Below, one piece after another: positions 220-24,003 of a stretch of DNA of 29,827 nt. A program made the position numbers and the translations under genes. This stretch comes from a virus, in IMG/VR virus record IMGVR_UViG_3300010397_001070, positions 1 to 29,827 of that record, one strand, 5' to 3'. Every line of letters begins with the position of its first letter. The stretch's first letter is position 1. The notes beneath the pieces are model-generated. The model was not told the DNA's origin. It worked only from the letters and a program-made list of their open reading frames with translations, and ran no database searches.

Positions 220-249
220 ATACTAGCACAAAATGTAATATCCTGTCAA
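220..249 (-). promoter_or_regulatory. sigma70-type promoter of the helix-turn-helix gene
   Basis: On the minus strand TTGACA (244-249), an 18-base spacer and TAGTAT (220-225) form a near-consensus promoter with an upstream TG (extended -10, TGCTAGTAT). The -35 box overlaps the last bases of the integrase stop codon (246-248). Transcription would begin near 213 and run into the gene at 1-156. Confidence 0.8.
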
Positions 250-1073
250 TGTAAAGCACCCTTCAACTTCTGTTCCATTTCAAAGTCTTCTGGCTGGATG
301 TAGATTTGGGTAGTTTTTAAGTTAGCGTGTCCCAGTCCCCATTGGATAGCCCGCATGTCAATTCCGCTTCTATATCTTTCAGTCGCCCAAGAGGTTCTCA
401 AACAGTGAGGAGTTAGTTCGATCTCTGCTTTATTAGCGTAGTGTTTGACGATTCTCTGAATAGTCCGAGGGTCGATGATACAACCTAAGTAGTTTAAAAA
501 AATATACCCCCTCCCCCTATCCTTAATGACTTTGATCAGAGCTTTGTTCGTTCGGTCACTCCAAAAGATTCTTCTCAGTTTCCCGCCGTTTTTCTCGGAG
601 ACAATCACGGCACTTTGAGAGGTAAAATCCATATCTTCAATTAAAAGTTTCCGAAGTTCTCCTAGTCTTAGTCCCGTATCCCAAAAGAGAGTGAGAATAG
701 CATAGTCTCGTTTTCCCATTCTTGTTCCTTTATCTATCTGCTTTAAAATCTTCTCAAACTGCTCTGGTCTTATGGGCTTGTGGTGATCCGCTTCCCCTCT
801 GGGGTACTTTATCAATTCAAAAGGGATATCTTTAATCTTCGTTTTTCTTAACCAGTTGAAATAATCCTTTAAGACGGAGACGATGTACTGCCTCGTTTTG
901 ACCTTATATTTGACCTTGCAAGCGTTTAGATAGTTCGTAGCGTCTTCATAGCCCAAGTCCTCGGTTTCCTTCTGGTGGAACGCATAAAAACGCTCTAGCC
1001 ATACCTTGTAGCAAAAGGCGGCTCTTGGAGCGTAGCTTTCTTTCCATGCTAAATACTTCTCAACGTGATCCAT
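246..1073 (-). CDS. int: tyrosine site-specific recombinase (phage integrase)
   Basis: This 275-aa integrase cuts and rejoins DNA at the phage and bacterial attachment sites. The N-terminal half has a SAM-like core-binding fold (about residues 1-85). The catalytic domain carries the full set of residues, numbered from this start: Arg136 in TGLRLGELR, Lys161 or Lys165 in SEKNGGK, His223 and Arg226 in TPHCLRTSWAT, His249 in LGHANLKTT and Tyr258 as nucleophile. The open frame continues upstream to 1229, but that part contains a terminator (1150-1181) and a promoter (1118-1147). The ATG at 1071-1073 is therefore preferred, although its AGGAG is only one base away. It lies next to a tRNA and a repeat-rich region, which fits an attachment locus. 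Confidence 0.93.
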   Translation of the reverse strand: MDHVEKYLAWKESYAPRAAFCYKVWLERFYAFHQKETEDLGYEDATNYLNACKVKYKVKTRQYIVSVLKDYFNWLRKTKIKDIPFELIKYPRGEADHHKPIRPEQFEKILKQIDKGTRMGKRDYAILTLFWDTGLRLGELRKLLIEDMDFTSQSAVIVSEKNGGKLRRIFWSDRTNKALIKVIKDRGRGYIFLNYLGCIIDPRTIQRIVKHYANKAEIELTPHCLRTSWATERYRSGIDMRAIQWGLGHANLKTTQIYIQPEDFEMEQKLKGALH

Positions 1074-1117
1074 ACTCCTGAAAAGGGGTATGATTGCCGT
1101 CGGGGGTGTAACGAGTT

Positions 1118-1147
1118 GATTTAGCATACACTTGGGTAAAGTGTCAA
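1118..1147 (-). promoter_or_regulatory. promoter of the integrase gene
   Basis: Minus-strand TTGACA (1142-1147) is followed after 17-18 bases by CTAAAT/TAAATC (1118-1124), with a TG just upstream that gives an extended -10. It lies directly after a terminator and 45 bases before the integrase ATG. The -10 box overlaps the alternative ATG at 1127, which argues against that start. Confidence 0.6.
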
Positions 1148-1149
1148 AT

Positions 1150-1181
1150 AAAAAGACCCGTCTCAATAGAGTTTCGGGTCT
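1150..1181 (-). terminator. intrinsic terminator upstream of integrase
   Basis: On the minus strand AGACCCG (1175-1181) pairs with CGGGTCT (1154-1160). A small internal CTC/GAG hairpin sits in the loop, and TTTTT (1150-1154) follows. It would stop leftward transcription from the lysis side before the integrase promoter, so integrase would be expressed separately. Confidence 0.75.
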
Positions 1182-1255
1182 CCTTTCCTTTTGTTTCCTA
1201 AACTTACACCTTCCCTTTCTGTACCGCAAGTGCGTAGTCGGTGGATAACTTAACC

Positions 1256-1481: not shown

Positions 1482-1554
1482 GCCCCGGCAGCATAGCGGA
1501 TCATGCAGCACCTTCGTAAGTAGCAGATCGTGAGTTCGAATCTCACCCGGGGCA
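1482..1554 (+). tRNA. tRNA-Thr (anticodon CGU), imperfect anticodon stem
   Basis: The 73-nt sequence folds as a cloverleaf. The acceptor stem GCCCCGG/CCGGGGC pairs 7 of 7, the D stem GCAT/ATGC 4 of 4, and the T arm GTGAG-TTCGAAT-CTCAC 5 of 5. The anticodon loop is TTCGTAA (1513-1519), with CGT at 1515-1517, which reads ACG threonine codons. The discriminator base is A1554 and the next bases are CCCA, so a clean CCA is not encoded. The anticodon stem (1508-1512 with 1520-1524) pairs only 3 of 5, so the gene may be degraded or an attachment-site remnant. It is on the strand opposite to nearly all genes. Confidence 0.8.
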
Positions 1555-1581
1555 CCCATTGATTTTGAAAGGGTCTTTTTT
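1554..1581 (+). terminator. weak terminator behind the tRNA
   Basis: ACCC (1554-1557) pairs with GGGT (1571-1574), helped by two A-T pairs inside, and TTTTTT (1576-1581) follows on the plus strand. It would end the tRNA transcript. The stem is short, so strength is uncertain. Confidence 0.45.
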
Positions 1582-2335: not shown

Positions 2336-2593
2336 TTATTCTGTTAAATCTTTATCAATTAGTTGCGTGTAACCGATGATGTCGTGCCATGAGTCTTTGT
2401 AAAATGGATCTCCGTTCAAAATTCTTCCAATTTTATGCGCAATCATCTCCAAAGCTTCTTTCATTTCTGGAGGAAGGTCGTTCCAGCGAGGCGAATCTTT
2501 CATAGCACTTTTGATGTTTTGAGTGATAAGAGCGTGAGTTTTAAAATCTCCGTACCTGTTGAATCGCTCTTTTAAAGTTTCGTCTATGGTCAT
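2336..2593 (-). CDS. small DUF6378-like phage protein
   Basis: The 85-aa helical protein contains MIAHKIGRILNGDPFYKDSWHDIIGYTQLI, with the K-x-x-R-I pattern and the DSWHDIIGY tail typical of DUF6378 proteins of phages. That family resembles all-alpha nucleotide pyrophosphohydrolases, but no catalytic role is proven and none is claimed here. Its start overlaps the exonuclease stop codon by 4 bases (ATGA), which points to translational coupling. Confidence 0.55.
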   Translation of the reverse strand: MTIDETLKERFNRYGDFKTHALITQNIKSAMKDSPRWNDLPPEMKEALEMIAHKIGRILNGDPFYKDSWHDIIGYTQLIDKDLTE

Positions 2594-3318
2594 AATTTTT
2601 GGATTACCTTATTGCCGTGAAACCACTTCCCACAGTCCCGACACTGATAGGATTGGTAGTGGGTGCCGTCAGCTAAAGCTCTGATGCCTTTTTTCAGCGG
2701 GACTCCTGCGCAGTGAGGGCACTTATTCCCTTCAAATACGACTTTCTTCTGGGTGATCCAGGCGAGATATTCTTCATAGAGGTTGGCGGTAATATCCACG
2801 TCGTGTTTGTTGTATTTCTTCATTTTCTCCCAGGCTTTCTTGTCCCCTGACATGCACTTCTCCCAGAGCGGGAAGCCCTCATGTTCGACTTTGCCCCCGT
2901 GACCTAACTGCTGGGAAACGAAGTCTAATTTGTTCGTCAGCCAGAGGAAATATCGTTTAGAAACCTTGAGGGTGTCGACGGTCTTAAACGGGCTAGGCGG
3001 CGGGAATTTATGTGTGATACAGCGAGTGTTGAACCACTTGAGGTCGAAATTATCCGAGTTCTGACCGATAACGATATCCGCTTTATCGAGAATGTCTCGT
3101 AAGGCTTTCACCACTTCGTAATCGTCTAGCTTTCCTTTCTTGTACTTTTTGAAATCCGGCTGGGCGACGACTTTTGTTTTCTCTCCGAGCCATTGATAGG
3201 CGAAACAGAGAATGGTGGGTTGCTTGGTGATTTTAATAATGGAAGTCTCCCAGGGCTTGCTCCAAAAGTAACCTTCGGCCGGAGAAGTTTCGATGTCTAT
3301 CACAACGAGCTTGTTCAT
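2590..3318 (-). CDS. DnaQ-like 3'-5' exonuclease with C-terminal zinc ribbon
   Basis: The 242-aa protein starts with an RNase H-like exonuclease fold. Exo motif I is DIETS (Asp8, Glu10), motif II lies in GQNSDNFDLKWFNTR (Asp89/Asp92 region), and motif III is YNKHDVD (Asp173/Asp175). These bind the two metal ions that cleave DNA or RNA ends. Residues about 200-229 add a zinc ribbon, CPHC then CRDC, likely for nucleic-acid binding. It most resembles stand-alone exonucleases related to the proofreading domain of family B polymerases. It overlaps the genes on both sides by 4 bases. A nuclease here, among lysis genes rather than replication genes, is unusual. Confidence 0.8.
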   Translation of the reverse strand: MNKLVVIDIETSPAEGYFWSKPWETSIIKITKQPTILCFAYQWLGEKTKVVAQPDFKKYKKGKLDDYEVVKALRDILDKADIVIGQNSDNFDLKWFNTRCITHKFPPPSPFKTVDTLKVSKRYFLWLTNKLDFVSQQLGHGGKVEHEGFPLWEKCMSGDKKAWEKMKKYNKHDVDITANLYEEYLAWITQKKVVFEGNKCPHCAGVPLKKGIRALADGTHYQSYQCRDCGKWFHGNKVIQKL

Positions 3319-9651: not shown

Positions 9652-9683
9652 AAAAAGAGACATCCCTGAGATAGAGATGCCCC
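9652..9683 (-). terminator. intrinsic terminator just before the tail-fibre start codon
   Basis: On the minus strand GGGGCATC (9676-9683) pairs with GATGTCTC (9657-9664) over 8 pairs (two G-T) around an 11-base loop, then TTTTT (9652-9656). The fibre ATG is only 9 bases further on, and a promoter lies about 30 bases upstream. The element would cut that transcript to about 50 nt unless it is overridden. Confidence 0.7.
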
Positions 9684-9712
9684 TTTGAAGTGTGGGCTAT
9701 TAAGTTAATACT

Positions 9713-9741
9713 ATTATGGCAGATTATGCCTTATTCGTCAA
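9713..9741 (-). promoter_or_regulatory. promoter upstream of the tail fibre
   Basis: TTGACG (9736-9741), 17 bases, then CATAAT (9713-9718) on the minus strand. It is back to back with the plus-strand moron promoter: the two -35 boxes are only six bases apart, so occupancy may be mutually exclusive. Confidence 0.65.
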
Positions 9742-21833: not shown

Positions 21834-23006
21834 TTAGTAACCTGTTTTATAATTGGTTCGTGTATTGACTGGTTTGTATGAGCTAAAGCCGTACCGTATT
21901 GCGTCCATCGGGTTACTCCACTCGTGTACTGAATCGTCTGGCTCGTTTATAAATTCCCCGTTCGGAAGTTTCTTATTCATGTAGTTCCGATATCCCTTGA
22001 TGGTTTTCAAACTCCTGGCTGTTATAGAAATCGGTTGATCTTGTACATACTGAATCCCCTGTAACACTGATCCTTGCCCCTTAATCGCTCCGATAATGTT
22101 CACTCCGTAACTCTTGATTTCATCTATACTTTTCGGTTCTGAGCTATCGGCAACAACGAGGATATTCCCATCGGTAGCATTTAACTTGTCTGCGATTGAT
22201 TTATTAGAAAGCCCTTTTTGATAGGTGTGTTCGTCGATGATGAAACCGCCGTTATACTCATAAATGTCTTCTATCACCGTTGGATCGATACTGTAACCAA
22301 AGTCCAGTCCTCTTCGTGATAGTCTTGCCTCATGGGGAATGTCCTGAATGATGTTCCAACCGGTATAGATTCTCCCCTCTACTTCTCCAAGTTGGCCGAG
22401 GCCGTAGACTTGCCACCATCTTGGATTATTCTTATGTGCTTCTATTTCTGATACTGAAATTGGATCGAGGGCTTCGTTGTCCAGATAAGTCAGGGTGATG
22501 AAATCAATATCCTCGCGCCTATTCAACATTTCGGTATAGAACCAAAACTCCTCAGAGGGGTTCCAGTCCATCCACACTATCTTTCTTGTTCTTGTAATGA
22601 GCTGGTCAACTATGTTGTAGTCGAGGTTGTTTGCTTCATTGAGGAAAAGAACGTCTCTTCTTGGTCCGTGTGCTTTTCCAAACTTATCGAAACTGATGAA
22701 CTCTAGAATGGTCTTATTGGGAAATGTGTAAGTATGATTTGATTCGTTCCAAGCGTTATCATCCCAATAGCCCTGAACCAACATGATGCTCTTGAAGTCT
22801 CTAATCGTTCCTAACTTGAGATGAGGATGAGACTCGGCAACGACTGTCATTACCTCTCCTTTTGTTGACTGTCCGTAATCTATGAGCCAAACAAGAATTG
22901 AAATCGTCTTTGATGCGCTAGTTCCTCCGCTAACTGCCCGGATTCGTTTCTTCAGGTTGAATATCTTCTTTGTCGCTGTTGTATTCTGAAACGCTAGCTC
23001 CGCCAT
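21834..23006 (-). CDS. terL: terminase large subunit
   Basis: This 390-aa DNA-packaging motor of the Terminase_3 (PBSX-like) type has an ATPase domain with Walker A GGTSASKT (27-34) and Walker B VLFLNEAN (Glu124), then an RNase H-like nuclease with metal-binding aspartates: Asp235 in LDFGYSIDP, Asp287 in VVADSSEP and Asp368 in MDAIRYGF. It pumps DNA into the procapsid and cuts the concatemer. Length is a little short for the family but all motifs are present. Its start overlaps the small-subunit gene by 77 bases. Confidence 0.95.
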   Translation of the reverse strand: MAELAFQNTTATKKIFNLKKRIRAVSGGTSASKTISILVWLIDYGQSTKGEVMTVVAESHPHLKLGTIRDFKSIMLVQGYWDDNAWNESNHTYTFPNKTILEFISFDKFGKAHGPRRDVLFLNEANNLDYNIVDQLITRTRKIVWMDWNPSEEFWFYTEMLNRREDIDFITLTYLDNEALDPISVSEIEAHKNNPRWWQVYGLGQLGEVEGRIYTGWNIIQDIPHEARLSRRGLDFGYSIDPTVIEDIYEYNGGFIIDEHTYQKGLSNKSIADKLNATDGNILVVADSSEPKSIDEIKSYGVNIIGAIKGQGSVLQGIQYVQDQPISITARSLKTIKGYRNYMNKKLPNGEFINEPDDSVHEWSNPMDAIRYGFSSYKPVNTRTNYKTGY

Positions 23007-23334
23007 AGATCGGGATTCCTTTATCGTTAGAAGTCACGTCTGATCTCTCCTTTAATGCGAGGATAAACTTCAGATACATCTCAATACTTTTCTCACTTCC
23101 TTCCTCAGCTTTTTCTCTTAATTTGTCTAACACACTCGATGTGCCTTTTTTGGCTTGACTGAGCGACAATTCCAAAACTAACTTCTCATTTTCCGGTTTC
23201 CTCATCTGGTAGTAGTAAGTGCTTTCGTCAATCTTCCATCTCCGAGCAAATTCAGCCACCGATTCTTGTCTCGCTGGCTTGGGGAGTGACTCTCTTTCAA
23301 TGGCGGCATCAATCCAAGTAATAACTTCAGACAT
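22930..23334 (-). CDS. terS: terminase small subunit
   Basis: The 134-aa protein has an N-terminal helix-turn-helix (VAEFARRWKIDESTYYYQMR, about residues 27-46) for recognising the packaging site, a coiled helical middle (KLREKAEEGSEKSIEMYLKF) for oligomerisation, and an acidic disordered tail. It is directly upstream of terL and overlaps it by 77 bases in another frame, so expression is probably coupled. A multi-hairpin leader, a terminator and a promoter lie before it. Confidence 0.85.
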   Translation of the reverse strand: MSEVITWIDAAIERESLPKPARQESVAEFARRWKIDESTYYYQMRKPENEKLVLELSLSQAKKGTSSVLDKLREKAEEGSEKSIEMYLKFILALKERSDVTSNDKGIPIYGGASVSEYNSDKEDIQPEETNPGS

Positions 23335-23445
23335 TTTTCTGTTCTTAACGGCGATCGGGTGTCGCGTTTCCTAGGTCATAGGGCGTAGACTATCCCTGCT
23401 GCCGTCGATAGGTGAGACCTAATCGCTGTCAAAAACATAAGAGCC
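23335..23445 (-). promoter_or_regulatory. structured leader of the terminase operon
   Basis: Between the terminator and terS the minus strand can fold into TAGGTC...GACCTA enclosing CTATC...GATAG, and a second hairpin AACG-CGA/TCG-CCGTT near the start of terS (one bulge). It may set translation of terS or hold a packaging (pac/cos) site, which lies in or near terS in many phages. The folds were found by eye. Confidence 0.4.
23405..23432 (-). promoter_or_regulatory. alternative terminase promoter
   Basis: TTGACA (23427-23432), 16 bases, then TATCGA (23405-23410) on the minus strand. The -10 is weak. If used, it would drive terS from downstream of the terminator at 23446-23480, so antitermination would not be needed. 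Confidence 0.35.
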
Positions 23446-23480
23446 AAAACGAAAAGAGACCCACGATATGTGAGTCCCTC
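23446..23480 (-). terminator. intrinsic terminator between late promoter and terS
   Basis: On the minus strand 23470-23480 pairs with 23454-23464 over 11 pairs (three G-T) around ATATC, followed by TTTTCGTTTT. It ends both the upstream glycan operon and any transcript begun at the promoter 23512-23540. Confidence 0.75.
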
Positions 23481-23511
23481 TGAAAGTATGGACTGGTATT
23501 CAATTGTCTCA

Positions 23512-23540
23512 ATCCTACACTATCTATTGTGTTTTGTCAA
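23512..23540 (-). promoter_or_regulatory. strong promoter before the head operon
   Basis: TTGACA (23535-23540), exactly 17 bases, then TAGGAT (23512-23517) on the minus strand, starting near 23505. It lies 22 bases after the stop codon of the 59-aa gene and about 30 bases before a terminator. It is the best candidate for the main late promoter. Confidence 0.75.
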
Positions 23541-23561: not shown

Positions 23562-23741
23562 TTATATTTCAATTTTCTTCTCTAAGATGGTTGTTCCCTT
23601 AATGACTTGTCTTTGGCCGGGTTTGGGCTTTTCAGTCGAGATGATGATTTTTCCCCCGAAATAAATCCACCCGCCCCGGCTACAGGCGAGTTCAAAGCTC
23701 TTTCTTAAAGCTTCTTTGAAAGATTCTGGAACTTCTTCCAT
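23562..23741 (-). CDS. 59-aa hypothetical protein after GroES
   Basis: A short ORF begins one base after the co-chaperonin stop. It has an amphipathic N-terminal helix (EEVPESFKEALRKSFELACS) and a short beta hairpin (GGWIYFGGKIIISTE) with a basic end. There are no cysteine pairs or membrane segment. It is the last gene of this transcript before the late promoter. The function is unknown. Confidence 0.65.
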   Translation of the reverse strand: MEEVPESFKEALRKSFELACSRGGWIYFGGKIIISTEKPKPGQRQVIKGTTILEKKIEI

Positions 23742-23742
23742 A

Positions 23743-24003
23743 TTACTTTTTCTTTTTAGAGACGACGAGACAAATGATTTGAGATTCTTTGGTGATGATG
23801 TAGTTCTTCTTCCCGTCTTTGAGGCCTGCTATGTTAGGGTCTTTTTCCAATACTACCTCATCACCCTTTTTATACTGCGATCCCTCTGCGACTTCCGCTA
23901 CGAGTAGATGTTTCTTTTGAAGGTTCTCTGGTAATAGAAGACCGGATTCTTCCTGTTCGACGACTGATTCGAGTAAAATGTTGTCTCCTACTGGCTTAAA
24001 CAT
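23743..24003 (-). CDS. GroES-like co-chaperonin
   Basis: The 86-aa protein has the 10-kDa chaperonin pattern: KPVGDNILLE at the start (compare the family RPLxDRVLV), a mobile loop EESGLLLPENLQKKH with the hydrophobic GroEL-binding LLLP, a YKKGDEVVLEK turn, and a C-terminal ITKESQIICLV strand. Phage co-chaperonins such as T4 gp31 replace host GroES so that GroEL can fold the coat protein. There is no groEL nearby. Its position just upstream of the head operon fits this role. It overlaps the upstream glycosyltransferase by 16 bases. Confidence 0.85.
   Translation of the reverse strand: MFKPVGDNILLESVVEQEESGLLLPENLQKKHLLVAEVAEGSQYKKGDEVVLEKDPNIAGLKDGKKNYIITKESQIICLVVSKKKK

Follow-up and report, generated by a model that had tools for sequence, protein, structure and literature searches.

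Uncultured phages related to the virus analysed here carry a predicted promoter–terminator unit that is lineage-wide and stands at the start codons of virion genes, and regulated antitermination of the late genes is, judging from sequence, probably the best explanation of these units. Two copies occur in the window, which denotes the whole 29,827-nt stretch of viral DNA under study: one precedes the head operon (unit 1) and the other a tail-fibre gene (unit 2; Table 1).

Table 1. Coordinates of the two promoter–terminator units of the window and of the genes behind them
Feature	Position	Strand	Basis or description
Unit 1 promoter	23512–23540	−	−35 TTGACA (23535–23540), 17-nt spacer, −10 TAGGAT (23512–23517); consensus match only
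Unit 1 leader, TGAGACAATTGAATACCAGTCCATACTTTC, 30 nt	23482–23511	−	Predicted start near 23505; sequence partly common to the unit 2 leader
Unit 1 terminator	23446–23481	−	12-bp hairpin (23453–23481) and U tract TTTTCGTTTT (23446–23455)
Further leader, terminator to terS	23335–23445	−	Strongly folded; z −3.4 for 23335–23505 as a whole
terS-position gene, first of the head operon (then terL, portal, major head protein)	22930–23334	−	Position and homology to relatives' ORFs ahead of terL
Unit 2 promoter	9713–9741	−	−35 TTGACG, 17-nt spacer, −10 CATAAT, TG before the −10
Unit 2 leader, AGTATTAACTTAATAGCCCACACTTC	9687–9712	−	Sequence comparison with unit 1
Unit 2 terminator	9652–9686	−	13-bp hairpin (about 9655–9686) and U tract (9652–9656)
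Tail-fibre/receptor-binding protein gene, 1274 aa	5819–9643	−	Its ATG lies 12 nt beyond the hairpin of unit 2

Unit 1 is flanked by the gene in the terS position and by a 59-aa ORF that follows groES. A preliminary description of this DNA had pointed to a strongest promoter before terS followed by an 11-bp stem with a T run, and both elements are present as an ordered pair that occurs above chance (0 of 300 shuffles). The promoter matches the consensus at 10 of 12 positions and is the top-scoring one on the minus strand between 20000 and 29827; the hairpin, AGAGGGACTCAC-ATATC-GTGGGTCTCTTT followed by TTTTCGTTTT, has a folding energy of about −15 kcal/mol and forms the longest terminator-like site on the same strand of that interval, with a stem measured at 12 bp. 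The predicted start and the U tract would yield an RNA of about 60 nt, the length that had been forecast. The terminator is separated from the gene start by 118 nt, and given this gap a downstream promoter is a possible alternative for unit 1 only. This candidate (23432–23405) has a perfect TTGACA and, at 16-nt spacing, the hexamer TATCGA; it was rightly ranked as the weaker promoter, because TATCGA fails the −10 rule of the scan.

The stretch between the unit 1 terminator and terS is itself structured. A long imperfect inverted repeat (23340–23437) lies directly ahead of terS, and the sequence from 23335 to 23505 folds better than its shuffles; it could represent a cos/pac packaging site or a leader RNA, and a tRNA-like origin was dismissed after ARAGORN detected no tRNA there. 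In three relatives that share the gene order (L034, L036 and L047), gt240, terS and terL are tightly packed without a unit; the unit is therefore not essential at terS and its place appears to be mobile. The same three syntenic relatives are missing the window's stretch 23562–24003, in which a groES-like gene and the 59-aa ORF lie between the glycosyltransferase gene and terS.

Unit 2 had been overlooked in the preliminary description. Our comparison of the two units reveals leader sequence and hairpin context in common, with a score of 34 that was reached by only 2 of 5000 shuffles. The long gene behind unit 2 was provisionally taken for a tape-measure gene, an identity dropped in favour of a tail fibre on later evidence. 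Promoter matches taken singly are no more frequent in the window than chance predicts (14 found, 13.7 expected). By comparison, strict units, defined as a promoter with at least 10 of 12 matches and a hairpin of −12 kcal/mol or lower with a U tract, 25–45 nt behind the −10, number two in the window, against none after 300 rounds of dinucleotide shuffling of both strands; hairpins were chosen by energy thresholds, and shuffles and other gene families served as controls. Elsewhere in the window, a tRNA-Thr (CGT) gene (1482–1556, plus strand) adjoins an integrase gene (246–1229, minus strand) and may mark an attachment site, and at 2336–3318 a phosphofructokinase-like fragment of 85 aa and a gene of the DNA polymerase exonuclease type are found beside an endolysin gene.

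Relatives were found through TerL, which retrieved at least 80 viral contigs, whereas the window's TerS, portal, MCP and gt240, used as single-protein seeds, found no relatives among viral contigs. On the contigs found with TerL, the strong sense-strand promoter–terminator pairs mostly lie just behind terL and end at the portal start codon. A portal alignment search gave at least 80 loci, from which 61 distinct portal genes were examined; a hairpin with a U tract precedes the ATG in 54 of the 61, a count that includes eight seed portals picked for having the unit and three (L045, L048 and L076) added by hand, and that becomes 44 of 50 when these are left out. Two of the six unit-less portals in the set of 50 (L126 and L163) show by eye a unit at the start codon that the script missed. 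The distance from hairpin to ATG in the 54 portal units is 3–25 nt (median 7.5), a promoter with at least 9 of 12 matches is present in 48 of them, and a good sigma70 promoter usually lies about 35 nt upstream of the terminator. In the SU10-adaptor-type (head–tail adaptor) family c82, for which the scan partly returned the same contigs as the portal search, the arrangement recurs in 21 of 23 genes, 15 with the promoter.

Counts over whole contigs gave the same picture, with 23 strict units in 10 contigs versus zero or one in each of 10 full shuffle sets. Within these 10 unit-bearing contigs, units are found ahead of the portal gene in 10 of 10, hairpins ahead of c82 in 8 of 9, and units ahead of family c80 in 6 of 9, with nearly none ahead of other conserved gene families. 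The number per genome is two in the window and two to four in most relatives, whose records may be incomplete and many of whose contigs are akin to one another. Several further features of these contigs were recorded. All 10 of them (G002–G011) contain a sugar-pathway cassette with two adjacent genes, of families c71 and c72 (e.g., L175, 80–1082), that by eye resemble transketolase halves. A portal match at G004:C1:17159–18976 contains one TGA and one TAA, yet a 608-aa open frame is called over most of it, and a relative's contig has a group I intron match of 70 bits (L098, 8578–8769).

The leader between promoter and terminator is constrained in the relatives, both in length (median 35 nt, interquartile range 32–36) and in structure. 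All 65 distinct leaders, taken unpicked, fold at −5.0 kcal/mol versus −2.9 kcal/mol for their shuffles (sd of the mean 0.19). A small hairpin with a stem of 4–5 bp recurs: in 14 portal-type leaders 94.6% of its stem cells are paired, with 20 double changes, and in 11 adaptor-type leaders 96.4%, with 10 double changes, percentages that lean towards the hairpin because visual selection and alignment of the leaders centred on it. None of 500 shuffles reached these values in either group, and sliding the partners destroyed the covariation signal. The hairpin is preceded by a motif, often GCTAATA in portal types and TCTTTAC in adaptor types; in L110 and L112, whose leaders are long, it is the spacing of the motif to the terminator that is kept, not that to the promoter. 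The three best matches of a covariance model of the relatives' leader RNA (R1) are portal units; however, two of them belong to its training set and the next match, L192, is not a unit, so the model is a weak detector. The two window leaders form no small hairpin on folding and do not match the relatives' RNA model, so extending the RNA signal to the window is an extrapolation; both window units keep the layout and contain a TTRAATA-like motif, and their leaders probably carry a variant of the relatives' signal.

Taken together, the unit may be described as a compact late-gene switch, in which a sigma70 promoter that looks constitutive, some 30–35 nt of leader and an intrinsic terminator would be set at the starts of virion operons. 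On its own, RNA polymerase would halt at the terminator after some 60 nt; late in infection a factor, probably phage-encoded, may act through the nascent leader RNA in a nut-like manner and let the polymerase pass the terminator, whereupon transcription would extend into terS and the genes after it (unit 1) or into the tail-fibre gene (unit 2). The U tract of the portal, adaptor and fibre units stands too near the ATG to leave space for a promoter, so that late transcripts starting at the unit promoter must pass the hairpin, and since the promoter is near consensus and looks unregulated, regulated readthrough is the economical explanation. We infer from these features termination at the hairpins, regulation of the readthrough, a signal acting at the RNA level and a single factor common to all units. 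The fuller proposition, that several dispersed cassettes of promoter, leader hairpin, terminator and AUG control the virion operons throughout the lineage, with readthrough allowed by an undescribed factor on the leader RNA and a regulon distinct from those of Q and N, seems to us evenly balanced between true and false.

A classical attenuator or riboswitch was rejected: duplexes between leader and terminator arm are no better than those of permuted pairs, and the terminator is kept in 61 of 65 minimum-energy folds. Since no alternative pairing of leader and terminator is seen, a factor on the leader RNA or on the polymerase is proposed. A NusG paralogue of the RfaH/LoaP type (PF02357) was not found in 12 records, with a control positive in 11 genomes. 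The small protein c58 is linked to the portal unit in 54 of 61 cases, and its structure model, of moderate confidence (pLDDT 71), has one helix and three strands; as an antiterminator it was discarded, being missing from the window and from the unit-bearing L045, L048 and L076, and it is a neighbour of the portal unit only. An assignment of the host from a single MAG match was likewise dropped, as that MAG has two sets of 16S matches.

Regulated antitermination has to be weighed against four other readings. In the first, the unit would be a one-way valve, whose terminator stops transcripts from upstream while polymerases from its own promoter are made resistant in cis by the leader RNA, like put of HK022, with no trans factor. 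The structured leader of fixed length in the relatives, the lack of any known antiterminator gene among our finds and the same-strand upstream genes that could read in all speak for such a valve. We nevertheless regard it as unlikely: with a near-consensus promoter the late genes would be on from the start, a hairpin of 4–5 bp falls short of put, which has two stem-loops in about 70 nt (PMC9378689), and the window leaders do not fold. Decidedly improbable, in our estimate, is that hairpin and U tract act in the 5′ UTR on translation or on the stability of the mRNA, with little termination. The U tract does often run into the ATG, and a Shine–Dalgarno-like tetramer is present in just 9 of the 54 portal units; but a GC stem followed by 5–8 U is the anatomy of an intrinsic terminator, the hairpin goes with a promoter at fixed distance, and in unit 1 the gene starts well beyond it.

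Control of the true lambda type, in which a Q-like protein loads at a promoter DNA site during a sigma-dependent pause, would account for a promoter and a promoter-proximal terminator ahead of late genes, and the preliminary description had read unit 1 as a copy of lambda pR′/tR′ while seeing no Q homologue. The latter point stands: the search for Q genes that it had suggested gave no member of the Q families PF06530 and PF03589 in 12 records and none of PF06323 in the same records (where the positive control was silent too). No Rfam family matched the window region or the units of four relatives. A DNA element of the Q, AlpA or GafZ type between −35 and −10 is not found in the units, where the TG before the −10 alone is conserved, and spacers are no more alike within one genome (identity 0.356) than between genomes (0.33). 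Together with the several units per genome and an RNA hairpin as the conserved feature in the relatives, this makes a Q-type mechanism very doubtful. Antitermination control as such thus remains the best-supported reading, through the relatives' units at portal and adaptor ATGs, whereas the likeness to lambda lacks support in its details. Finally, a small RNA that functions in its own right, with the late genes transcribed from elsewhere, would suit a promoter–terminator pair that delimits a complete RNA and a structure conserved in relatives, but retains a bare outside chance, given that the units stay with virion gene starts and that the portal, adaptor and fibre units could not house a second promoter.

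If regulated antitermination holds, the units would constitute a family-wide, testable late switch, its terminator joined to the start codon, and their compact RNA signal, likely bound by a factor, would offer a sequence handle for finding new antiterminators. It would also furnish an annotation rule, by which a terminator at a start codon in such phages is read as the beginning of a late operon instead of an operon's end. Among 50,697 records of isolate phages, no close relative of the portal (query L039) or the adaptor protein was found, and the window portal had one weak match. The literature search, with preprints and papers under other licences outside its scope, returned analogues only, namely Q, AlpA, GafZ, put, conAn and SAS/ESAS.

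The SAS/ESAS elements of cluster K mycobacteriophages, a fixed 13-bp sequence and a conserved 17-bp repeat, respectively (PMC3203893), resemble the units as repeated inverted-repeat elements just upstream of the start codons of several phage genes. By comparison, the stems of the units vary freely, with a U tract after them and a promoter before them. The conAn system of pLS20-type plasmids (PMC8955417), set beside the units by description, also combines an RNA element and a protein in antitermination at operon starts, but its operons are those of conjugation, with many terminators inside them. With the antiterminators AlpA (PMC9371919) and GafZ (PMC11150451), polymerase gets past an intrinsic terminator downstream of the promoter of GTA or lysis genes; each of them binds DNA within the −35/−10 spacer, at an element for which the phage units yielded no counterpart. 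The put RNA of HK022, which serves early genes (PMC9378689), is likewise a promoter-proximal structured leader of similar overall length, and the leaders of the units could in the same way make polymerase termination-resistant; this is distinct from the phage units in that their second stem-loop is itself a terminator. With lambda pR′/tR′ and Q (PMC6606751), the units share a sigma70-type promoter, a terminator close behind it, late genes and readthrough as the switch. They differ in the absence of a Q family and of a conserved promoter DNA site from our searches, in their number per genome, in terminators fused to start codons and in the RNA hairpin conserved in the relatives. The lambda N/nut system (boxA, boxB) has a comparable order, a short leader motif and then a small hairpin of 4–5 bp ahead of a terminator, and the adaptor-type UCUUUAC presumably resembles boxA. 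Among the small conserved proteins that were inspected no N-like protein is known, short arginine-rich proteins being difficult to identify from sequence; unlike N/nut, the window copies are without the hairpin, the terminator follows at once, and it is late genes that the units would serve.
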